In this document: piece by piece, positions 1,014 through 33,681 of the stretch | Layout of the letters: each line of letters opens with the position of its first letter | Numbering within the stretch: the stretch's first letter is position 1 | Virus record (IMG/VR): IMGVR_UViG_3300035698_006008 | Span: 1-33,681 of that record | Origin: a virus | Length of the DNA stretch: 33,681 bases | Direction: 5' to 3' (one strand) | Program-made: the position numbers and the translations under genes | The notes under the pieces: model-generated | What the model saw: the letters and a program-made list of their open reading frames with translations, nothing else | Database searches by the model: none | Told to the model about the DNA's origin: nothing

Positions 1014-1307
1014 ATGGGACTAATAAAAGTAGATGACGAAGCAGCAAAACTCTGGGACGACACGACTGTCCGTACGACAATATTTACAGATCAGGATACG
1101 CTTACAGGGCTAAGACATATGGCCCGGGACGTTGGTAACGTTAATGTGGGTGCGCTTGTAACTGTCATAACAAGATTCGTGATGTCGATTGAAAAACTAT
1201 CGCTTAATGAGGATGCAATCAATCAAATAAATTATTCGTGGGATAAATTTATGGTAGACGTAAAACGTCCAGAAAAACGCGGGCGCCGCAAGGACGTTAA
1301 AAATTAA
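1014..1307 (+). CDS. Hypothetical protein with basic C-terminus, 97 aa
   Basis: This is the first gene of the rightward block and I do not recognise it. The middle (about residues 30-65) is a mix of hydrophobic and polar residues consistent with a helix-rich core; the last 15 residues are strongly basic (KRPEKRGRRKDVKN), suggesting nucleic-acid contact. The ATG follows AAAGGAAAA at about 12 bases, a moderate ribosome binding site. The TAA stop at 1305-1307 overlaps the proposed ATT start of endonuclease I as ATTAA, so the two are probably translationally coupled. The position suggests a regulatory or nuclease-partner role, but that is inference. Confidence 0.75.
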   Translation: MGLIKVDDEAAKLWDDTTVRTTIFTDQDTLTGLRHMARDVGNVNVGALVTVITRFVMSIEKLSLNEDAINQINYSWDKFMVDVKRPEKRGRRKDVKN

Positions 1308-1710
1308 AACCAAAGTAGGAAAACGTAGTCTGTTTGAAGAACAGATAGCGAAACAACTGGTACTCAATAATATAAAATTTGAGTATGAAGATAGAACCAG
1401 GGTTATACTTTATGTGGTGCCGGAGTCTTCACACAAATATCTACCAGATTTTATATTATCGAATGGTATATATATTGAAGCTAAGGGGTTGTTTAACAGA
1501 GCTGATCGGCAAAAACATATACTTATTAGAAAGCAATATCCAGAGATCGATTTGCGATTCGTATTTCAAAACATGAAAAATAAAATAAGTAAGCAGTCGA
1601 AGACAACATATGCTGACTGGTGCGTTAAAAATGGTTTTAAGTTCGCGAACCAAAGAATACCTGTTGCTTGGATTCAGGAAAACCATACTTATAATAGGAG
1701 CAATTTATGA
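1303..1710 (+). CDS. T7-type endonuclease I (Holliday-junction resolvase), ATT start
   Basis: Resembles phage T7 gp3 (endonuclease I family), which cuts branched DNA to debranch replicating concatemers before packaging. The order of conserved parts matches: GKRSLFEEQIAKQL, then IKFEYE, then KYLPDFILSNGIYIEAKG, then ADWCVKNGFKFA and IPVAWI. The expected catalytic set is present as E12, D49, E59 and K61, numbering from the ATT at 1303. Length is 135 aa against 149 in T7. No ATG, GTG or TTG precedes E12: the frame is open back to 1264, and the first standard start (GTG at 1414) would remove the catalytic Glu. The ATT has AAGGA eight bases upstream and overlaps the previous stop, so I take it as the start. 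The end overlaps the next gene as ATGATG. Confidence 0.88.
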   Translation: MKTKVGKRSLFEEQIAKQLVLNNIKFEYEDRTRVILYVVPESSHKYLPDFILSNGIYIEAKGLFNRADRQKHILIRKQYPEIDLRFVFQNMKNKISKQSKTTYADWCVKNGFKFANQRIPVAWIQENHTYNRSNL

Positions 1711-3369: not shown

Positions 3370-3792
3370 ATGTTATCAGGGATGCGTGTTTCATTTGTGA
3401 ATAAAAAGGATAATATTAATATAGTTGTCTACTTGTTATCTCAGGGCGTTGATTTGTATCATGCAATTGATATTGTAGGTTGGGATGCAGAATACTATAG
3501 CAATTTACTAAAGACTAACTCAAAGTTTAAACTTAGTGTGTTTGTCCAGTTGTTACGGCGTGATTACACTCTAAAGAGAGTTTGTGCCGGTATTGGTATG
3601 ACGATGTCTACTTTTTATGACTGGGTTAAAGGAGATGATGACGTTAGATATCATATAATCAACGAGCAGGATAAGCTAATTCAAAAGTTTAGAGATGGCG
3701 AGTACGAACCAAAATACTATAGAGATTACACAAAGAATAAAAAAGCTGACGAGGAAGCTGCAGCTTTGAAATCTGAGGCAGCATTAACGTAG
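3370..3792 (+). CDS. Candidate terminase small subunit, 140 aa
   Basis: Two successive helix-turn-helix-like units can be seen: GVDLYHAIDIVGWDAEYYSNLL (in two parts, about residues 26-47) and DYTLKRVCAGIGMTMSTFYDWV (about 63-84). The tail, from about residue 105, is charged and helical and could serve oligomerisation. Small terminases usually pair such a DNA-binding domain with an oligomerisation tail and lie immediately before the large subunit, as here. The ATG directly follows the previous TAA, and the last 10 bases overlap the proposed large-terminase start. Which of this gene and the preceding one recognises the packaging site cannot be decided by eye. Confidence 0.75.
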   Translation: MLSGMRVSFVNKKDNINIVVYLLSQGVDLYHAIDIVGWDAEYYSNLLKTNSKFKLSVFVQLLRRDYTLKRVCAGIGMTMSTFYDWVKGDDDVRYHIINEQDKLIQKFRDGEYEPKYYRDYTKNKKADEEAAALKSEAALT

Positions 3793-5207
3793 CAGAGGAC
3801 ATAGTAGACTATGTTCTGAGGTGGAGAAAGGATATATCTCTGTTCGCAGAAGAGTTTTTACAGATAACACCGACGCCTCAGCAGTCAGAATTTTTTAAAT
3901 TTGTAGTTAGCTACCAGAGGATTGCGTGTAAGTCCGGACACGGCACTGGGAAGTCTACCGGCTTGGCGGTAGTCATCTGGTGGTTTCTTATTTGTTTTCC
4001 TCGCGCTCAGTGTCCTTGTACGGCGCCATCAGCCGAACAGCTAAAGAACGTACTTTGGGATCGGTTAAGGGCTATCTGGACAAATCTTCCTCCTGAGATT
4101 AAAGACCAGTGGGTCATCACCTCCGCTAAAGTGGAGAACGTGATAACAAAGAACTCGTTCGCAATCGCACGTACCGCTCGTGTTGAGAACCCTGATGCTT
4201 TGCAGGGGTTTCACAGTGATAATCTGCTGATATGTGCTGATGAGGCTTCCGGTATATCAGATCAAATCTTCATGCCTATTATGGGCGCCCTTACGGGTGA
4301 GCACAACAAGATCATATTGATCGGAAACCCTACTCGCGTGACAGGGTTTTTCGCTGAATGCTTCGCACAAGACTCAGGCTGGGCTCAGATGACGCTTAAC
4401 GCTGAGGAGTCTAAGCTTGTAACTAAATATCAGATCAACTATTGGAAAGACAAGTACGGTGTATCGAGCGATGAGTATCGTATACGGGTACTTGGAGACT
4501 TTCCTATGTCAGACTCTTCCGCTCTGTTCAGTCTGGAAGATATAGACTATGCAATGGACTCATCTATCACCCCGGACGATCCGGTAGTGTGGGGTGTTGA
4601 CGTTGGTGGGTTTGGCGGGGATGCTTCTGTAATCGCTAAGAGGTTCGGCAACTGTATCACTGAGATTAAGGAGACGTTCAACCGCAGAAGCACTGAGGTT
4701 GCCTACTGGGTAGCGAAAGAATATAAGAAGACTACCGAGAAAGAGCGCCCGTTGATCATATTTGTTGACGTGATTGGTATTGGAGACGGGGTGTTCTCCA
4801 GACTGCGGGAGATTGGTCTCCCAGTACGAGAGGTTATCAGTCATGCGAACGCATTCGAGCCTGCAAAATACGTCAACGTTCGTACTGAGATGTTTATGAG
4901 GCTGAAGGATGCTGTAGAAAGCCGATTGCTTAAGCTTCCTAGAGATGGTAAGCTTCGCAAACAGTTAATGACGATTGGTTATATTTACGATAACAAAGGG
5001 AGATATCAACTATTGTCTAAGCACAAGAAGGTAATAGGGTCTGACCGAGTGTTCGGAGGTAAGAGCCCTGATATTGCTGATGCAATCGCATTCACATTCG
5101 TAGAAGATATTTACTGTTACGACCCAGGCAACATCTACGGCCGTCATCATTTAAGGCAGGACAACTACCTAACCCCTAATCCATTTGATAATATATATGA
5201 GCTATAA
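3783..5207 (+). CDS. terL: Terminase large subunit (packaging ATPase-nuclease), ATT start
   Basis: This is the motor that pumps DNA into the prohead and cuts the concatemer. From the ATT at 3783 the protein is 474 aa, a normal length. The N-terminal ATPase has Walker A SGHGTGKST (residues 51-59), Walker B LLICADEASG with Asp153-Glu154, and a coupling-type motif in IGNPTRVTG. The C-terminal RNase H-like nuclease has VWGVDVGGFGGD (Asp273), IIFVDVIGIGDGV (Asp329) and KSPDIADAIAF (Asp430, Asp433). No ATG, GTG or TTG precedes Walker A in the open frame from 3777; the first standard start (TTG 3963) would delete it. ATT 3783 has GAGG four bases upstream. CTG 3816 is an alternative without a ribosome binding site. 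Confidence 0.93.
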   Translation: MNVAEDIVDYVLRWRKDISLFAEEFLQITPTPQQSEFFKFVVSYQRIACKSGHGTGKSTGLAVVIWWFLICFPRAQCPCTAPSAEQLKNVLWDRLRAIWTNLPPEIKDQWVITSAKVENVITKNSFAIARTARVENPDALQGFHSDNLLICADEASGISDQIFMPIMGALTGEHNKIILIGNPTRVTGFFAECFAQDSGWAQMTLNAEESKLVTKYQINYWKDKYGVSSDEYRIRVLGDFPMSDSSALFSLEDIDYAMDSSITPDDPVVWGVDVGGFGGDASVIAKRFGNCITEIKETFNRRSTEVAYWVAKEYKKTTEKERPLIIFVDVIGIGDGVFSRLREIGLPVREVISHANAFEPAKYVNVRTEMFMRLKDAVESRLLKLPRDGKLRKQLMTIGYIYDNKGRYQLLSKHKKVIGSDRVFGGKSPDIADAIAFTFVEDIYCYDPGNIYGRHHLRQDNYLTPNPFDNIYEL

Positions 5208-6879
5208 CCCAAGTAATAATAAAGACGACTCGACCGGCCGCGAGAAGATGAAGAAGGTAGCGCGGCAACTGAACGAAGTGGTCGCTAAGCTTCAGGCATA
5301 TAGACGACCTTACGAAGCAACCTGGCAGTTAATATGCGACTATATATACCCTTCGATGGGTACGTTCACGACTAAGAGAACACCAGGTGAGATGGCCACG
5401 GGCAGTAAGGTTGATTCATACCCTACGCACGCTTGTGATATGCTGGCCAGTTGGCTTCAAACTATCCTGACGAACTCAGCTACTAACTGGTTTTTGCTGA
5501 AGATGTACGGGGACGACAGCAACAAAAACTATGAAACAGAGGAATGGTTGGATAAGACAGACCAGGTCTTTAGGACAATGATCAATGACAGCAACTTGGA
5601 CGTTGGTTTGTTCGATGCTTACCGGACTGTTGCGGCTCTTGGTACTGCATGCTTATACTGTTCTGCAAAGAAAGACTCTCCCCTATCGTACCAGACAATT
5701 CATTTGAACGAGATATTCTTAAGAAACACATATGACAGCGTGATTGACTCTGTCTTTAGGATTTACACTGTTACTAAGCGTGAAGCTGCTAACTTCTTTG
5801 GGATAGACAAGCTGTCCCGGGGGGTTAAGATGGATCTTAAAGGGCATAGAAAGGATACTGCCGAGGAAGAGATCACTCTTGTTCACGCGGTAGTGCCTAT
5901 CTCTGAGTTTAAAGACTTACCAAACGTCAACCCTAAGCATAAATACCGTTCTATTTATATGGAAAAAGATACTGAACACATTATAGATGTAGGGGGGTTC
6001 TTCGAACTGCCGTACATCGTGTTCCGATGGAGCGTTGAGCCTGGTCGAGTGTACGGTGTTGGTCCTGGATGGACCGCATTGGCTGATATTAAGATGCTGA
6101 ACCGTATGAAGGCCACTCTAATACGCGCAGCAGAGAAAGCTGCTGATCCTCCCTATGGCGTCCCGGAAGGAAAGTTCTCAGGGGTAATAAAGATGAACCC
6201 AGGCGGGATTCTTTTTATGAGGAAGGGATCTGATGCTTTGGAACCGTTGTTCCAGTCTTCTAACCTTTCGGTATCTCATGACATGGTGGAAGCACAAAAG
6301 TCTCAGATAGGCGAGATATTCTTCCAGGATCAGTTGAGGATGCTAAACAAAAGTCAGATGACGGCTACTGAGGTGTTAGAGCGGTCAGAAGAGAAGATGA
6401 GGCTGTTATCGCCTATACGGGGACGGTTTGAGATAGAACTGCTGCAACCTCTAGTTGAAAGGTCATTTCATTTATTAAATAGAAAGGGGTACCTCCCTAA
6501 ACCTCCCCCGAATGCGACCCAGAACGGGTTAACGATTGATTACCAATCGCCTATACATAAAGCACAGAAGATCGATTCACTGGTAGGTTTGCAGAAGATG
6601 ATTCAGATTGTCCAGCCTTACTTACAGTTAGATCAACAGGCGTCGTTGTTATTTAAAGGGGACGAGATTATAAGATTGGTAGCTGATATCCTTAATGTTC
6701 CTGTTAAAACCTTGAGAAGCGACTTTGAAGTACAGCAGAAACTTGAAGAGATGCAGAAACAGCAAGAGCAGCAGCAGCAGATGGAAGCACAGAAAGTCCA
6801 GGCCGAGGTAGGTCAGATGGCAGCCAGTGCTGAATTAGACAATGCAAGAGCGCAGCAGGCTAAAATCCCTGGAGGATAA
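5197..6879 (+). CDS. Head-to-tail connecting (portal) protein, T7 gp8-like
   Basis: A 560-aa protein of the podovirus head-to-tail connector family, which forms the dodecameric ring at one capsid vertex through which DNA enters and to which the tail attaches. Family-like blocks are AYRRPYEATWQLICDYIYPS near the start, ACDMLASWLQTILTNSATNW, NEIFLRNTYDSVIDSVFRIY, and GRVYGVGPGWTALADIKMLN in the middle. The C-terminal 50 residues form a Gln/Glu-rich helix. I start at ATG 5197, which overlaps the terminase stop region; a TTG four codons earlier gives no better ribosome binding site. The stop overlaps the next gene as TAATG, with GGAGGA just before. Confidence 0.93.
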   Translation: MSYNPSNNKDDSTGREKMKKVARQLNEVVAKLQAYRRPYEATWQLICDYIYPSMGTFTTKRTPGEMATGSKVDSYPTHACDMLASWLQTILTNSATNWFLLKMYGDDSNKNYETEEWLDKTDQVFRTMINDSNLDVGLFDAYRTVAALGTACLYCSAKKDSPLSYQTIHLNEIFLRNTYDSVIDSVFRIYTVTKREAANFFGIDKLSRGVKMDLKGHRKDTAEEEITLVHAVVPISEFKDLPNVNPKHKYRSIYMEKDTEHIIDVGGFFELPYIVFRWSVEPGRVYGVGPGWTALADIKMLNRMKATLIRAAEKAADPPYGVPEGKFSGVIKMNPGGILFMRKGSDALEPLFQSSNLSVSHDMVEAQKSQIGEIFFQDQLRMLNKSQMTATEVLERSEEKMRLLSPIRGRFEIELLQPLVERSFHLLNRKGYLPKPPPNATQNGLTIDYQSPIHKAQKIDSLVGLQKMIQIVQPYLQLDQQASLLFKGDEIIRLVADILNVPVKTLRSDFEVQQKLEEMQKQQEQQQQMEAQKVQAEVGQMAASAELDNARAQQAKIPGG

Positions 6880-16825: not shown

Positions 16826-17881
16826 ATGAGTTATAATATAGGAAATATTTTGTCTAGAATGTATGGAGGGGCTAAGTCTGGTGGGGGAATGCTATATGAA
16901 GGAGCGCAAAGGGCTGGCGAGAATTTCATGTCTAATTTTAGACATGAAAGAAATAGAAGTGGGATGGAGGATTTCGAGAAGAAATTAAAAGAAAACAAGA
17001 ATTTATTTGGTCAAAACCAACAATTTTACCAGTCCCATGGTGTTGAACCTATGGCGCATGGCTATATAAAGAATAGAATTTTTAATCCAGAGCTTAGTAG
17101 GACACGAACACTTACAGACGCGTTGAGGAAGTCTGGTCATCAACCTAGCGGTCAAGAAGATACCCGTATGTCTCTTCAGCAACAAGCAGATAGTTCCTTA
17201 TCACAGAAACGACCTAATCCGTTACAATATTACACTCCAATACAAGAGTTACAACAGGAGGCTCCTCAGGGACCGCAACTAACTGAGCAACCTGTTTATA
17301 AAATACCTTCCGATATAGCAAGGACGCAGCCTGCTAATAAACAGGTCTTGCCTACTTCCTCGATGACCGCGAGTCATAGGCAGTTGCCCCCGCAGCAGCA
17401 TATGCTGCAGCAAATGACACCACAGCAGCAGCATATGCTGCAGATGCAACATCTGCAGTATATGCAGCAGATGCAACATCTGCAGCAGCGAATGAACATG
17501 CAAAATCAAATGCGACAGGTTCCTAAACAACAACAGAATAAGCAGATGCAACAGGTAGGACAGCAACAGGTAGGACAGCAACAGCGAATGAACATGCAAA
17601 ATCAAATGCGACAGGTTCCTAAACAACAACAGCAAAATGATCAATTTAAAGAAAACTATTCGAATCGTACCATAGTTAACAATTCGTTAAAGATAATGAC
17701 CCAGGTTAACCAAATGACGAGTGGGAGCATTCCTAAATCGGAACAGGAAGAAATTTTTAACCAGTTGGTACTGCATAATGGGGACGCTAGAAGCATACCG
17801 TATAGCATGTTCAATTCGTTCTCTCCTAAAGCACAAAATATATTAAATCAGATACAAAATCCTGTTAGTGAAAGGAAGTAA
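16826..17881 (+). CDS. Gln/Met-rich internal-virion protein candidate with internal repeats, 351 aa
   Basis: The N-terminus MSYNIGNILSRMYGGAKSGG resembles those of neighbouring genes. Residues about 185-270 are a low-complexity Gln/Met/His region with two exact copies of a 17-residue unit beginning RMNMQNQMRQVPKQQQ. Between the copies VGQQQ repeats, and a HMLQ/QHLQ pattern precedes them. The last 80 residues are a more ordinary helical domain (NNSLKIMTQVNQMTSG, EEIFNQLVLHNGD). The ribosome binding site AAAAGGGAAAA is good. No family recognised. Low-complexity Gln repeats and position suggest an elongated or disordered virion component. Confidence 0.65.
   Translation: MSYNIGNILSRMYGGAKSGGGMLYEGAQRAGENFMSNFRHERNRSGMEDFEKKLKENKNLFGQNQQFYQSHGVEPMAHGYIKNRIFNPELSRTRTLTDALRKSGHQPSGQEDTRMSLQQQADSSLSQKRPNPLQYYTPIQELQQEAPQGPQLTEQPVYKIPSDIARTQPANKQVLPTSSMTASHRQLPPQQHMLQQMTPQQQHMLQMQHLQYMQQMQHLQQRMNMQNQMRQVPKQQQNKQMQQVGQQQVGQQQRMNMQNQMRQVPKQQQQNDQFKENYSNRTIVNNSLKIMTQVNQMTSGSIPKSEQEEIFNQLVLHNGDARSIPYSMFNSFSPKAQNILNQIQNPVSERK
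17486..17632 (+). repeat. 51-bp exact direct repeat plus a 15-bp tandem repeat
   Basis: A 51-bp unit occurs at 17486-17536 and 17582-17632, 96 bases apart (32 codons). Between them caacaggtaggacag is tandem at 17549-17563 and 17564-17578, with a partial third copy. All periods are multiples of three. Confidence 0.93.
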
Positions 17882-28468: not shown

Positions 28469-29769
28469 TGATTAAACTATCCTACATAACCCCAACAGGG
28501 GGAGACGGCACAAGAACCAGATACGAGATACCAACCACATCAAGCATAACCGAAAAACAGGTCTCAACAACGATAATATCAAACTTCGGACAGTCAGGTA
28601 CTATCACATGGACACTGCCGACTGCTGAGAAGGAACTTGATTTTATTGCTCAGATCGGGACTGCTACTGGTACGGATTATATTATTATTAAACCACCGCC
28701 AGGCAGCGTCATGCTGCTGTTAACCGATTTCGTAACTCAAATTGACTGCAAGGACGCAAAAGAAGGCGACTCAATTTGGTTTCGGGTCATTGAGTCGGTT
28801 GTAGACGGAACTTTTCTTTGGTTTGGAACCATAATAGAAGGGGTCTGGCTGAGCTTAAATGATTTGTTTTGGTGTGTCGGAGGTGTACAAGATTCTGCAC
28901 AGGTGAATGCTAACCGGGAAATGGACGTTAAAAAAAACACGTGGTCTTTAAATACGCCGTTCCCAGTGACACATCAAAGCGGAAGTTCTGCTATGATAGA
29001 TGGGAAGATGTACGTTGGGGCTGGGAAATCAACCAGTGGTTTTAAATACCCATATTTATCAGCATTTAATTTCATTACAAAAAGCTGGTCATCTACGATC
29101 AGTATATCAAGACCATATGGTTTTGTTTCGTTTATCGGGATAGGGCCACTAGGTTATTATTACTCCGCTTCTGTGGCAAGCCCATCAGCAGGGTTGCAGG
29201 TATTCGACAGTGAATTGATTTCATGGACAACTAAGTTCCCAGGAGAAACTCATGTCAAGAACGCGTGTTTCTCCTTTAGTTCAAAGAATACAGAACAAAC
29301 AGAGCAAGGAATCTTTTATGGATGTGGCGCAACTATGCCTGTATATGCTATGACCGCAACTAACTATTTTTATTATCCCCCTCTGAATTATTTTATAAGC
29401 AAAACTGTTTTCCCAGTAGGGGTGAGGCAATCCGGAGGTTCTTTTAGAAAGAACGAGACAGAAGGACATTGCCTAGGAGGCCTGGACATTGGGTCTTCTG
29501 GTACTGCAAGTAACCAGAAATTCTCAAATATAAGTAGTGGTATTTGGACAGGGGAAGCGTCGCTTCCATTCTTTTTTTGGAACCAAAGCGGTAACATTGG
29601 ATGTGGCGTAGGAGGGAAAGGATATATTACAGGTGGCCCTCGTAACGGGTACGGCAGCCCAGCCTGCTCGCAATATGATGATAACATATGGACATTGATG
29701 ACCCCATACCCGGCCACGTATATTTCCGAGCAGTCAACCACGTCAACCGGAGAAAACGCTGTAGCTTAG
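28468..29769 (+). CDS. Kelch-like tail fibre / receptor-binding protein 2, 433 aa
   Basis: Paralogue of the preceding gene. The shared N-terminal domain reads SNFGQSGTITWTLPTAEKEL, LDFIAQIGTA, GDSIWFRVI. Propeller-like blades follow: MIDGKMYVGAGKST with FITKSWSS, GIGPLGYYYSA with LISWTTKF, GHCLGGLDIG with SSGIWTGE, and VGGKGYITGG with YDDNIWTLMTPY. The C-terminus TSTGENAVA mirrors GENPV of the first. I use ATG 28468 (TAATG overlap) rather than an upstream in-frame ATG inside the previous gene. The stop TAG is shared head-on with the stop of the leftward lysozyme paralogue (overlap of four bases), leaving no room for an intergenic terminator. Confidence 0.78.
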   Translation: MIKLSYITPTGGDGTRTRYEIPTTSSITEKQVSTTIISNFGQSGTITWTLPTAEKELDFIAQIGTATGTDYIIIKPPPGSVMLLLTDFVTQIDCKDAKEGDSIWFRVIESVVDGTFLWFGTIIEGVWLSLNDLFWCVGGVQDSAQVNANREMDVKKNTWSLNTPFPVTHQSGSSAMIDGKMYVGAGKSTSGFKYPYLSAFNFITKSWSSTISISRPYGFVSFIGIGPLGYYYSASVASPSAGLQVFDSELISWTTKFPGETHVKNACFSFSSKNTEQTEQGIFYGCGATMPVYAMTATNYFYYPPLNYFISKTVFPVGVRQSGGSFRKNETEGHCLGGLDIGSSGTASNQKFSNISSGIWTGEASLPFFFWNQSGNIGCGVGGKGYITGGPRNGYGSPACSQYDDNIWTLMTPYPATYISEQSTTSTGENAVA

Positions 29770-30284
29770 GTAGATAGCCATTCCGCAATTAATTCTATAT
29801 TATCGTCAAGCCTATGTTTCCCTTTCCCCCTATACCACTTGGAATCAATAAGTTCTTTTATAAAAGTATTGTATTTCTTATGATTGATTGCTTCGATAGC
29901 CCTCTTAAACTTTCTAAACCCGGTATATCCTAGCGCGTACCTTAAATCTATGAGCACTCTTCTAACTACCCATGGCGTTTCTTCCCAGAAAAAACGGTAC
30001 GAAAAAATACATTTCAAATCATTTGTGCAGTTTATAATATCGTTATCTAGCAGGAACAAAGCTTCTTTTACTGATAACCCTCTATCTTCCCAGTTTGTCG
30101 TATATCCAGTAGAACAACTGTACTTTATTTTTAGATCTTCATATTCTTTTACTGATAACCCTCTATCTTCCCAGTTTGTCGTATATCCAGTAGAACAACT
30201 GTACCCCATTTTTATTAGTAGATCTTCATATTGTTTTGTTATCGAATCACGCTCTTCATATTGTTTTGTTATTGAATCACGCAT
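29766..30284 (-). CDS. Lysozyme paralogue lacking the catalytic Glu, 172 aa
   Basis: Copy 1 of the duplicated lysozyme. The C-terminal 98 residues differ from the intact copy at only seven positions. The front is remodelled: the stretch holding the catalytic Glu (LLIKHEG) has become LLIKMGYSCSTGYTTNWEDR. The TIGFGRNLD strand is lost, and a 27-residue segment containing YSCSTGYTTNWEDRGLSVKE is present twice through an 81-bp period repeat. The frame is fully open, with AAGGAG before the ATG at 30284. Glycosidase activity is unlikely. It may be decaying, or retained as a non-catalytic lysozyme-fold protein. It ends head-on against the second Kelch-like fibre gene. Confidence 0.8.
   Translation of the reverse strand: MRDSITKQYEERDSITKQYEDLLIKMGYSCSTGYTTNWEDRGLSVKEYEDLKIKYSCSTGYTTNWEDRGLSVKEALFLLDNDIINCTNDLKCIFSYRFFWEETPWVVRRVLIDLRYALGYTGFRKFKRAIEAINHKKYNTFIKELIDSKWYRGKGKHRLDDNIELIAEWLST
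30063..30204 (-). repeat. 61-bp exact repeat at 81-bp period inside the lysozyme paralogue
   Basis: The 61 bases at 30063-30123 recur exactly at 30144-30204. The period of 81 bases is 27 codons, so the duplication kept the frame. The intact lysozyme copy has only one version of this segment. Confidence 0.93.
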
Positions 30285-30364
30285 TAATTTTCTCCTTTTT
30301 GAATATCTATAAACTCCCATACCTGCAATCGATTAGTTTTACATAAGGTCTCAAGCAACAACAT
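30284..30364 (-). pseudogene. 3' remnant of the primase gene left by the duplication
   Basis: In the primase reading frame this stretch encodes LCKTNRLQVWEFIDIQKGEN and the same TAA stop as the real primase gene, with one Lys-to-Glu change. It joins in frame to an ATG (30364) in the 22-base junction, giving a 26-codon frame starting MLLLET. I see no ribosome binding site for it, so it is most likely a duplication scar that now serves as the leader of the lysozyme paralogue. Confidence 0.75.
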
Positions 30365-30386
30365 CGTTCGGAGAAAACGCTGTAGC

Positions 30387-30872
30387 TTAGGTAGATAGCC
30401 ATTCCGCAATTAATTCTATATTATCGTCAAGCCTATGTTTCCCTTTCCCCCTATACCACTTGGAATCAATAAGTTCGTTCATAAAAGTATTGTATTTCTT
30501 ATGATTGATTGCTTCGATAGCCCTCTTAAACTTTCTAAACCCGGTATATCCTAGCGCGAACCTCAAATCTACGAGCACTCTTCTAACTACAATTGGCGTT
30601 TCTTCCCAGAAAAAACGGTACGAAAAAATACATTCCAAATCATTTGTGCAGTTTATAATATCGTTACCTAGCAGGAACAAAGCTTCTTTTTCTGATAACC
30701 CTCTAGTGTCTAAGTTTCTGCCAAACCCAATTGTCGTATATCCAGTAGGACAACTGTACGCCATGTGCCGTCCATTTCGAACACGAGAGCCTTCATGTTT
30801 TATTAGTAGATCTTCATATTGTTTTGTTATTGAATCACGCTCTTCATATTGTTTTGTTATTGAATCATGCAT
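30387..30872 (-). CDS. T4-type lysozyme (endolysin), Cys-variant active site, 161 aa
   Basis: Glycoside hydrolase family 24-type endolysin that cuts the peptidoglycan glycan backbone at lysis. The catalytic triad pattern is E27 (LLIKHEG), C41 in AYSCPTGY and T47 in TTIGFGR; T4 lysozyme has Glu11, Asp20 and Thr26. Cys in place of Asp is known to be tolerated in this family. The E-to-C loop (13 residues between) is longer than in T4 (eight). The C-terminal lobe has FFWEETPIVVRRVLVDLRFA and GYTGFRKFKRAIE. No signal peptide or anchor is seen, so a holin would be needed. Residues 3-22 hold a DSITKQYEER duplication. The ATG at 30872 overlaps the primase stop (TAATG), with AAGGAG upstream. Confidence 0.9.
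   Translation of the reverse strand: MHDSITKQYEERDSITKQYEDLLIKHEGSRVRNGRHMAYSCPTGYTTIGFGRNLDTRGLSEKEALFLLGNDIINCTNDLECIFSYRFFWEETPIVVRRVLVDLRFALGYTGFRKFKRAIEAINHKKYNTFMNELIDSKWYRGKGKHRLDDNIELIAEWLST
30811..30867 (-). repeat. 30-bp-period repeat at the lysozyme N-terminus
   Basis: A 27-base segment at 30811-30837 recurs at 30841-30867, a 30-base (ten-codon) period encoding DSITKQYEER then DSITKQYEDL. The same repeat is present in the paralogue (30223-30249 and 30253-30279), so it predates the gene duplication. Confidence 0.93.
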
Positions 30873-33100
30873 TAATTTTCTCCTTTTTGAATATCTATAA
30901 ACTTCCATACCTGCAATCGATTAGTTTTACATAAATCCGTAACTCCAGAATCAGCAGGTTTTAGCCACCCATGGCTCTCTAGAAGATCCACTCCCTCAAC
31001 AGCAGATTTTTTAGTCCGATAACACGACGGGCCGAAATTATAAATGTCAGGTAGAGAGATCCTTTTTAAACCTCTCCTTTTTATAAACATCAGAAGCTTG
31101 TCCGCATTGTTTATACCTTGATCCTCTGCATCCAATAATGTCATCCTAAGACGTTCTGACAAATAATAATCCACCAGTGTTGCTGCTTGATCCATAGCGA
31201 GTACTTTTATTTCTTCTGCCTCTGGGTCCTCAAACAAGGTCAAAATACCGGCAAGCCGTATGACATGATTTGGAGCTTTCCCGGCAAACCCCTGTATTGA
31301 TTCGTATTCTCCCCCCTTGGATAGTCTACTCTCAACGTCGTTATAGAAAATCTCCCATCTATCGTGAGCTGTATCGCTTATAGTAACTTCCCTAGGAATA
31401 ATAGAATTGTTAACAATATTTAATTTAACGGATAAGCTTTGTTCGAGGGTATCATGATATTTTTCAAATTCTTTAGATTTTGTGATGTCCTCAGATACGT
31501 ATTTTCTATCTCCGAGAAGAGATTTAGGGTACGCACATAGGAACCGAGAAATTAAACCCTGGTTTCTCATTACAGCATCATTTAAGAATTTCATAGCTAT
31601 ATCATCCTGCATCATCAGATGTATGGATAAACGTTTCCCGGTTAAAACGACAGCGTCATCTCCTCTTATTCTATCAATAGACATACCATCCCACCATTTC
31701 GAGTACTGAGTTGCGGTGTAAACTTTCTCCTCTTCTTTCATAGAATGCCCGCCCGTTACTTGCCCTCCCTCATCCGCGCAAAGATATTTACTTGGGGTTC
31801 CTGATTCGAATAATTTAAAAATGCCTTGTATTGTAGGGTCAGAGAAAACCAGGATGGGATTATATGGTTTCTGTGGTACGTCTGACAAATCACGTATAAT
31901 CTTGTTAAGATCCTGTCCTTCAGTTGTTTTTAACCCTTTTAGTGCAGCCTTTTTTTTAGCCTTATAGAGATCTACCTTCGTTTCATATTCTATATTATCT
32001 GAACGATATTTTATCAAAAGTTTTTCTTGAAAATTCTGTGTCATAGCAGATGCCCTAGCATCACATTCAGTTTTTCTTGAAGACTTGCTTCCGATGGATA
32101 GAAAAAACTCATTTAAGGGTATCCTTCTTCCATCTAAGGTCACAATATTAGCTATGCCCTGAACACTATGCGCAGCAAACCCGAGCAACGAATGAGCGCA
32201 GATAGCATCCGGCGCGTTAATATTTTCAAACATTTTGCACCCTGCTGCTCCGAGGACGTCGCCTAGCGCGTAGAAAGGATACGGTCTTGGTTCGTTTGCC
32301 TTTCGTAATAACGGAATCGGTTCTTCACTAGAAGAAGAAATAATGTTTATTTTGTAAATTGATAGGATCGTTGTTATAAATTCCTTGGACCCTAACGGAG
32401 GTAGGCATCGCTGGTTCCATATTTTGCATAACTCTATTGTGTCGTCTAAAGATAAATTTTTAGACAGGTATCCACCGCAAATAGAGGCTAATGCAGAATT
32501 ACGGTTGCCTTTACAAACCCCAAATGCGGAGTTCACGACCGGTTTTATTAAGGATAAATCTATTCCGCCTTCTTTGACGGAAGAATCCGTGTGAGTCACT
32601 ATCGGAAATTCCGACAACCCATCCCACCCATCCGGGAAAAATTCCCACCGGTATGGTTTTTTTGATATATAATGAAGTGACGGCGGTGCAACTGCTAACC
32701 CGCCGTCACCCTTTAAGTCAACGTCCTTGTAAAACCCGTTAACACTTTTTAACGCTGGGAACGGACCCCCCTGGGGATACTTATAATAAAAATGCTTCCC
32801 CCGGGTAGTTATGTTTACCACATTCGCGTGAGGATAGTTTTTCTCTATCCAAGCACATCCTTCTTGTGTGTCACCATCTAATACGACAACCCCTGATATT
32901 TTACCGGTTACTATAGATATGCTAACGTCCGTTTTATTTTCAAACCACTCGTGTAATTTTTTTTTTGTAGGAAATTGTTTTTGATATATTTTCCATGGAA
33001 CCTCCGGTACCCTAGTTTTTGTATGAATAGGAATTACAGAAAAACCCTGCTCAAGATATTCAAGTGCGTAATCTAATATTGTTTTATCCGGAATGAGCAT
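30872..33100 (-). CDS. Prim-pol / DUF3987 primase-helicase-like replication protein, 742 aa
   Basis: The N-terminal domain resembles bifunctional primase-polymerase: QGFSVIPIHTKTRVPEVPW, the metal pair in GVVVLDGD (Asp75, Asp77), GKHFYYKYP (His103) and DVDLKGDGGLAVAPPS (Asp129). The rest resembles DUF3987, found next to phage and plasmid primases. Its ATPase-like loop is SIGSKSSRKT (about 336-344), with the Arg-Lys form usual in that family instead of Gly-Lys, and its Walker B-like motif is LCADEGGQVTGG (Asp443-Glu444). It probably primes and helps unwind the phage genome. The ATG at 33100 has only AAGAGAAAA upstream. It is followed by the lysozyme through a TAATG overlap, tying replication and lysis in one leftward operon. 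Confidence 0.9.
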   Translation of the reverse strand: MLIPDKTILDYALEYLEQGFSVIPIHTKTRVPEVPWKIYQKQFPTKKKLHEWFENKTDVSISIVTGKISGVVVLDGDTQEGCAWIEKNYPHANVVNITTRGKHFYYKYPQGGPFPALKSVNGFYKDVDLKGDGGLAVAPPSLHYISKKPYRWEFFPDGWDGLSEFPIVTHTDSSVKEGGIDLSLIKPVVNSAFGVCKGNRNSALASICGGYLSKNLSLDDTIELCKIWNQRCLPPLGSKEFITTILSIYKINIISSSSEEPIPLLRKANEPRPYPFYALGDVLGAAGCKMFENINAPDAICAHSLLGFAAHSVQGIANIVTLDGRRIPLNEFFLSIGSKSSRKTECDARASAMTQNFQEKLLIKYRSDNIEYETKVDLYKAKKKAALKGLKTTEGQDLNKIIRDLSDVPQKPYNPILVFSDPTIQGIFKLFESGTPSKYLCADEGGQVTGGHSMKEEEKVYTATQYSKWWDGMSIDRIRGDDAVVLTGKRLSIHLMMQDDIAMKFLNDAVMRNQGLISRFLCAYPKSLLGDRKYVSEDITKSKEFEKYHDTLEQSLSVKLNIVNNSIIPREVTISDTAHDRWEIFYNDVESRLSKGGEYESIQGFAGKAPNHVIRLAGILTLFEDPEAEEIKVLAMDQAATLVDYYLSERLRMTLLDAEDQGINNADKLLMFIKRRGLKRISLPDIYNFGPSCYRTKKSAVEGVDLLESHGWLKPADSGVTDLCKTNRLQVWKFIDIQKGEN

Positions 33101-33328: not shown

Positions 33329-33681
33329 TTAAAACGGTATATCTGACTCCGATATTTTAGATTGCAGCTTTGACTCGATATTTCCAGTCATGTCACATGA
33401 CTGGAAATATTTTATGACATTTTTATCGGGGTAATCAGTAGATATTTTAATGTACAGATACCCTTGGCAGACTTTCCCAATAAACGAATTTAAATCGTTC
33501 GGATAAAAAACCGAGTTATTGAAATTAACGGCGGAGCATAATGCTTTTAATTTTTGTAAACTATAATTAGTGGTTAATGACATATTCTCCCATACTTTAG
33601 TATTACTATTGTCCTCATCGACAATGGTGAACTCCCACTTAATATAATCTGCCCCGCTTTCCTTCGCCTGCAGTATATTCA
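33329..33681 (-). CDS. OB-fold-like phage single-strand-binding candidate (DUF669-like), 5' end outside window
   Basis: The frame is open to the right edge of the window. In-window residues begin NILQAKESGADYIKWEFTIV and continue DEDNSNTKVWENMSLTTNYS, FIGKVCQGYLYIKIS and YPDKNVIKYFQS. This succession of strands, the Trp at a strand end, and IGK followed by a second barrel half recall the DUF669-type phage proteins with an OB-like fold. The C-terminus, ISESDIPF, matches the acidic DIPF tail by which bacterial SSBs recruit partners. An in-frame ATG at 33583 with GGGAGAAT upstream is possible, but it would remove the first strands, so I treat the gene as partial. It lies upstream of the primase in the same operon. 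Confidence 0.7.
   Translation of the reverse strand, partial: NILQAKESGADYIKWEFTIVDEDNSNTKVWENMSLTTNYSLQKLKALCSAVNFNNSVFYPNDLNSFIGKVCQGYLYIKISTDYPDKNVIKYFQSCDMTGNIESKLQSKISESDIPF
33378..33410. repeat. Perfect 16-bp inverted repeat with one-base centre, inside a gene
   Basis: The left arm atatttccagtcatgt (33378-33393) is the exact reverse complement of the right arm at 33395-33410, around a single C at 33394. It lies within the 3' part of the single-strand-binding candidate gene. No U-tract follows on either strand, so it is not a typical terminator. It could form a hairpin in mRNA or a cruciform in DNA. Confidence 0.95.

Follow-up and report, generated by a model that had tools for sequence, protein, structure and literature searches.

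The large terminase (TerL) gene of this phage has no standard start codon ahead of its Walker A motif and is probably translated from an ATT codon at position 3783, a junction that is shared by two phage genomes. We analysed the whole virus record (33,681 bases, G+C 0.407), hereafter the window, and the features of interest are listed in Table 1. The TerL frame is closed on its 5' side by the stop TGA 3774-3776 and opened by GGC 3777. From there to position 3962 it contains no ATG, GTG or TTG, exactly as the initial annotation had described, and the first standard start is TTG 3963. Because the Walker A motif lies 5' of this TTG, a start there would delete it, and the codon was rejected. Read-through of TGA 3774 was dropped as well, as no standard start lies between the previous stop in this frame and the TGA. 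The situation at ATT 3783 is that expected of an AUU-initiated gene: essential conserved sequence is preceded by no standard start, and an AUU stands at the homologous start position (-56, in codons from the Walker A lysine codon) with a Shine-Dalgarno sequence, at a short gap. The lack of a standard start, coding back to the overlap with the preceding gene and the position of the ATT are all well supported by the sequence.

Table 1 Features of the window discussed in the text.
Feature	Coordinates	Strand	Remarks
Inverted repeat AACGTCC/GGACGTT (7 bp)	1264..1298	+	3' arm overlaps part of the Shine-Dalgarno sequence of endonuclease I
Endonuclease I gene, from proposed ATT 1303 start	1303..1710	+	PF05367 1.6e-50, phrog_945; alternative start GTC 1267
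Upstream gene, 140 aa, putative small terminase	3370..3792	+	Named by position
GAGG, Shine-Dalgarno-like	3775..3778	+	4 nt before ATT; duplex -5.6 kcal/mol
ATT, proposed TerL start codon	3783..3785	+	Walker A Lys codon follows 56 codons later
TerL gene	3783..5207	+	474 residues counting the initiator; PHROG matches, motifs
9-bp hairpin (one G-U pair)	3796..3817	+	Begins 13 nt after the A of ATT 3783
Walker A motif SGHGTGKST	3933..3959	+	
TTG, first standard start codon in TerL frame	3963..3965	+	Rejected as start
Head-tail connector (portal) gene	5197..6879	+	PF12236 (Head-tail_con) 5e-109; 11-nt overlap with TerL end

The predicted product of the gene is a large terminase, with a packaging and nuclease role assigned by family. 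It belongs to the TerL class by sequence match (phrog_5902, 8.9e-56; phrog_2, terminase large subunit, 1.7e-45) and by its ATPase motifs. In a four-sequence alignment the Walker A motif has G54, G58 and K59 invariant, and the Walker B motif LLICADEASG has D155, E156 and A157 invariant. The frame is unbroken over 476 codons. No Pfam family was matched at 0.001, and the 202 records of the phages collection that match the protein are all below 60% identity. The preceding gene, which from its position would be the small terminase, encodes a protein with only a weak match, to the transposase PHROG phrog_157 (6e-4); none of the 50,697 records of the phages collection matches it at E 0.01. It ends in TAG 3790-3792; its frame and that of TerL overlap by 16 nt (3777-3792), and the overlap is 10 nt if TerL starts at the ATT. 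A tRNA search of the window found none.

Starts of related terminases were compared by how many codons separate a standard start codon from the codon of the Walker A lysine, and are thus read from codon positions. The set comprised 141 relatives, 81 from viral_contigs and 60 from genome_contigs. We left out L035, which belongs to the same contig as L001 and is identical to the window, L002, which has the same junction, and the 202 matches in the phages collection. Single-linkage clustering at 70% puts the relatives into 27 clusters of uneven size, the largest holding 63 of the 141. Given that internal GTG and TTG codons inflate any count of all starts, we counted ATG only and used neighbouring stretches as controls. 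An ATG is present at -61 to -50 in 120/141 relatives, compared with 14/141 at -49 to -38, 9/141 at -37 to -26 and 8/141 at -25 to -14. Farther 5', with stops ignored, the counts are 34/141 (-73 to -62) and 44/141 (-85 to -74); some of these ATGs are alternative starts farther upstream, and others fall beyond the open stretch of the frame. The commonest single positions are -56 (30/141), which is that of ATT 3783, and -57 (28/141), with a further 11/141 at -55. Some standard start codon occurs at -61 to -50 in 140/141 relatives and at -45 or earlier in all of them, the exception (L177) having standard starts at -81, -70, -66 and -45. In thirteen relatives no ATG stands in frame at -40 or earlier, and GTG or TTG takes its place. 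Relatives with an ATG aligned elsewhere, which would have spoken against the start put forward in the initial annotation, did not appear; the starts of the relatives align at the position of the ATT.

Furthermore, the same ATT junction was found in a second phage genome. L002 is a separate contig of 6,647 bases that shares the position of the upstream stop and the ATT and likewise lacks a standard start, whereas L001, L010 and L035 derive from a single IMG/VR contig; across its 7051 bases L001 does not differ from the window and hence is not an independent witness. Across codons 3777-3962, the first 62 of the frame, L002 and the window differ at seven codons, five silently and two by replacement. 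One replacement is Tyr to His; the other, GTA to TTA at 3789, leaves the upstream protein unchanged. Nei-Gojobori counts gave 6.0 silent changes over 40.5 sites and 2.0 replacement changes over 145.5 sites (dS 0.165, dN 0.014; Fisher p 0.0014 on rounded counts), and the bias was also seen in codons 3786-3839 alone (3/11.2 silent vs 1/42.8 replacement, p 0.023). A second contig with silent-biased change makes a sequencing slip or a decayed gene unlikely. In agreement with the positions of the relatives' starts, the L002 junction thus points to ATT 3783, with its GAGG, as the best start, as was originally proposed.

L002, which is 79% identical, was initially taken as a distant witness of deep conservation, and this was dropped after the codon-level comparison, which showed the junction to be young. 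Two amino acids differ between L002 and the window among the final 49 residues of the upstream gene, and along TerL their dS is 0.27 for codons 62-121, 0.92 for codons 122-181 and saturated beyond. Over L002:1-1554, the end of the upstream gene and the start of TerL are near-identical to the window and later TerL is saturated at silent sites, implying that L002 is a mosaic in which a young junction was joined to a divergent TerL body by recombination inside the ATPase domain. The comparison therefore places the junction in two phage genomes and does not speak for ancient conservation. In viral_contigs there was no further close relative with this junction, one of the searches covering the best 80 of 578 matches, and a search with the upstream protein returned the same two contigs only. 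A DNA pattern for the junction had one match, L034 (a contig of 435,804 bases), which was rejected as it is not a TerL relative (best E 0.86). In genome_contigs, a TerL sequence search found none, and a TerL alignment search found 60 loci whose best segments are 27-39% identical. A capsid search gave 12 loci, one of them the contig identical to the window; a TerL relative was present in one of the 11 other capsid records, at 25%.

Several other readings of the junction were weighed. TerL could start at another near-cognate codon of the frame, namely ATA 3801 (-50), CTG 3816 (-45), ATA 3834 (-39) or CTG 3840 (-37). GAGG lies 2 nt upstream of ATA 3801 (GGAGG in L002), and weak initiation by CUG, at 0.86% of AUG, is described in PMC11497404. 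The upstream duplexes of ATA 3801 (-5.8), CTG 3816 (-5.8, 16 nt away) and ATA 3834 (-7.7, the strongest among the candidates computed, which did not include CTG 3840) equal or exceed that of ATT 3783, and the 4-nt gap between GAGG and the ATT is itself short. Nevertheless, the relatives have an ATG at -50 in 2/141 cases and at -45, -39 and -37 in none, vs the 30, 28 and 11 noted above for -56, -57 and -55; the gap at ATA 3801 is very short; and the silent changes in L002 begin 5' of ATA 3801, at 3792 and 3798, although these are two sites only. Overall, we regard a start at one of these codons as unlikely. Trp16 (codon 3822) does not vary among the four aligned sequences and is Tyr in most viral_contigs relatives, and this variability means that it supports coding 5' of 3834 and 3840 only loosely. 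Shine-Dalgarno sites precede many other genes of this phage, and the RNA fold at the TerL start is not notable (z -1.36).

The overlap of the two frames at 3777-3792, together with the missing standard start, might also be read as the site of a programmed -1 (or +2) frameshift that fuses TerL to the upstream protein. By eye, however, the overlap holds no slippery site: the upstream codons GCA GCA TTA ACG TAG allow no -1 re-pairing and contain no X XXY YYZ. The standard codon near the position of the ATT in 140/141 relatives is moreover consistent with separate starts, and we consider the frameshift very unlikely. Fusion to the preceding gene, named beforehand as an outcome that would overturn the ATT start, likewise did not appear. 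A sequencing or assembly error, or decay of TerL, has to be considered for a metagenomic record, the more so as the identical L001 contig may share its source data. Against it stand L002, another contig in which frame and ATT are kept despite seven codon differences, five of them silent, and a TerL frame intact for 476 codons, which leave this explanation extremely improbable.

If TerL is translated from ATT 3783, the initiator tRNA would start it at the AUU with GAGG as the Shine-Dalgarno sequence; we infer both actual initiation at this codon and its sensitivity to IF3. As in coupled pairs, the downstream ATT 3783-3785 is next to the upstream stop TAG 3790-3792, and since it sits 7 nt 5' of it (first base to first base), ribosomes would most likely be supplied by termination-reinitiation from the preceding gene. 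Those ending at TAG 3790 would be 7 nt past the AUU and could re-initiate weakly with the help of GAGG. Re-initiation at overlapping gene pairs is described in PMC6728339 and PMC2268962. Overlaps are frequent here (14 of 30 adjacent plus-strand gene pairs, or 12 without two mechanical TTG starts), so that overlap alone is weak evidence for special regulation, and we lean only slightly towards coupling of TerL to the upstream gene. The portal gene may be coupled to TerL too: its ATG 5197 lacks Shine-Dalgarno pairing, and its first 11 nt overlap the end of TerL.

AUU is a poor start that is disfavoured by IF3, and TerL output would therefore probably be kept below that of its neighbours. IF3 works against non-standard starts (PMC5472188), and re-initiation at a start without a Shine-Dalgarno sequence falls when IF3 is high (PMC2268962), which suggests that the output should be low and sensitive. 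For a low-copy packaging motor that has nuclease activity, low output would be fitting; that it was selected is possible, and on balance we find it doubtful. The ATT may instead be a real start that arose as a neutral by-product of an ancestral ATGA overlap, with coupling making a bad start tolerable. By this route a single change of ATG to ATT would have extended the upstream gene by two codons to TAG. Were 3785 a G, the upstream frame would have a TGA at exactly this place, and at 1707, 21839, 23837 and 27110 the genome does have ATGA overlaps. On the other hand, the ancestral ATGA is itself hypothetical, and the fact that the window and L002 have both kept the ATT, with different TerL bodies and a junction dS of about 0.17, suggests at least tolerance over time. 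We hold the neutral route to be a serious possibility, a little short of an even chance; this judgement is not exclusive of translation from ATT 3783, as the start codon is the same and only the reason for it differs. The neutral route and selection for low output can both be true, and the neutral route is as good an account.

The initial annotation had further proposed two ATT starts in one genome, both on packaging or DNA-processing enzymes, as a shared way to keep expression low. It left the second enzyme unnamed, and the only other candidate that we found is endonuclease I. This gene surely lacks a standard start as well: its frame is open from 1264, with none until GTG 1414, while 25/25 endonuclease I relatives have one 5' of the residue used for comparison. 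These comprise 2 phage records and 23 viral loci, many of the latter near-identical. ATT 1303 is preceded by AAGGA 1290-1294, with 8 nt between, shares its last T with the upstream TAA and is the likely start. This part of the proposal holds less firmly, since ATT 1303, at -21, is 3' of the starts of most relatives, which lie 30-39 codons before the comparison residue, and the assignment is less certain than that of ATT 3783. The alternative GTC 1267 is at -33 and has no visible Shine-Dalgarno sequence, and a +1 slip on the AAAAA run preceding it is conceivable. A base error at this junction is possible, as no second genome with it was found: the only close match is the contig identical to the window, the rest being at most 58% identical. 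None of 12 records (the 11 other capsid records and the L003 record) has an endonuclease I match, which tells us little as the records may be fragments. A 111-nt fold of the inverted-repeat region is unusually stable (z -2.64; 2/200 shuffles as stable), whereas in a 45-nt window it is less unusual, 5.5% of all such windows being as stable. Opening of the repeat over the Shine-Dalgarno sequence by upstream translation would fit.

Start-codon usage was otherwise uniform. The 36 listed genes comprise 32 with ATG, two with ATT (TerL and endonuclease I) and two called mechanically from TTG (15250 and 19737). The last two have no Shine-Dalgarno pairing and an in-frame ATG soon after, and ATG 15304 and ATG 19767 are taken as their true starts. 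Given that both ATT genes encode DNA endonucleases by family and that the other assigned starts are ATG, low expression of both is plausible, although this concerns two genes of one genome and is inseparable from drift at overlapping stops. The pattern fits a throttle on harmful enzymes, but post hoc and in two genes. It seems improbable that TerL and endonuclease I share an AUU throttle that responds to IF3, with both genes tied to the stop of the gene before them, such that both enzymes appear only with heavy upstream translation or when IF3 becomes limiting late in infection.

Both L002 substitutions in the 3796-3817 stem (C-G to U-G and G-U to G-C) keep pairing. The window contains 38 distinct stems that have 9 or more pairs and a loop of 3-8, and thus a hairpin near a start is not rare. 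Long hairpins with 16-pair stems (G-U allowed) occur at 17431-17465 (-24.5 kcal/mol) and 33377-33411 (-20.5 kcal/mol). In the region 29735-30934, the minus-strand neighbours 29766-30320 and 30387-30908 both match phrog_13211; they share blocks of 300 nt and 137 nt at 95% and 98% identity and 22 identical nt upstream, and the first copy has an internal 71-nt unit repeated 81 nt apart. The pair looks like a recent tandem duplication.

Bacteria do use AUU starts (PMC9410913, PMC5472188). The cases are E. coli infC, which encodes IF3, and pcnB, given in PMC9410913 as the only two AUU-start genes of E. coli; the title of Binns and Masters 2002, cited in PMC9410913, describes pcnB as translationally limited by its inefficient start codon. 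The proposed AUU start of TerL is common to both, which are chromosomal, whereas TerL is a phage gene that tightly overlaps an upstream stop, with no IF3 feedback implied. Streptomyces sigR (PMC5472188) has a non-standard start, GTC, that is repressed by IF3, was missed by annotation and acts as a brake; it differs in its codon, in being a cellular regulator and in having been shown experimentally, TerL being known from sequence. In the ATGA and TGATG pairs of Huber et al. 2019 (PMC6728339), start and stop likewise overlap, or nearly so, and the Shine-Dalgarno sequence lies inside the upstream gene, but those pairs share stop and start bases, whereas the proposed TerL start is an AUU 7 nt before the stop. 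With phrog_2/phrog_5902 terminases the protein shares the Walker A and a Walker B-like motif, and here the gene precedes a Head-tail_con portal. The 141 relatives of this type have a standard start available, in contrast to this lineage.

A literature search, mostly without subscription papers and hence weak evidence of absence, returned no report of an AUU-started phage terminase. All 64 start codons have reportedly been studied by Hecht et al. With a start position strongly supported by its alignment, TerL looks like a new phage member of the rare AUU-start class. AUU starts are very rare, and the case is a real but modest oddity. If TerL is AUU-started, gene callers limited to ATG, GTG and TTG can truncate essential phage proteins, here a motor that loses its Walker A motif, and the junction would offer a small natural test of a near-cognate start beside an overlapping stop codon.
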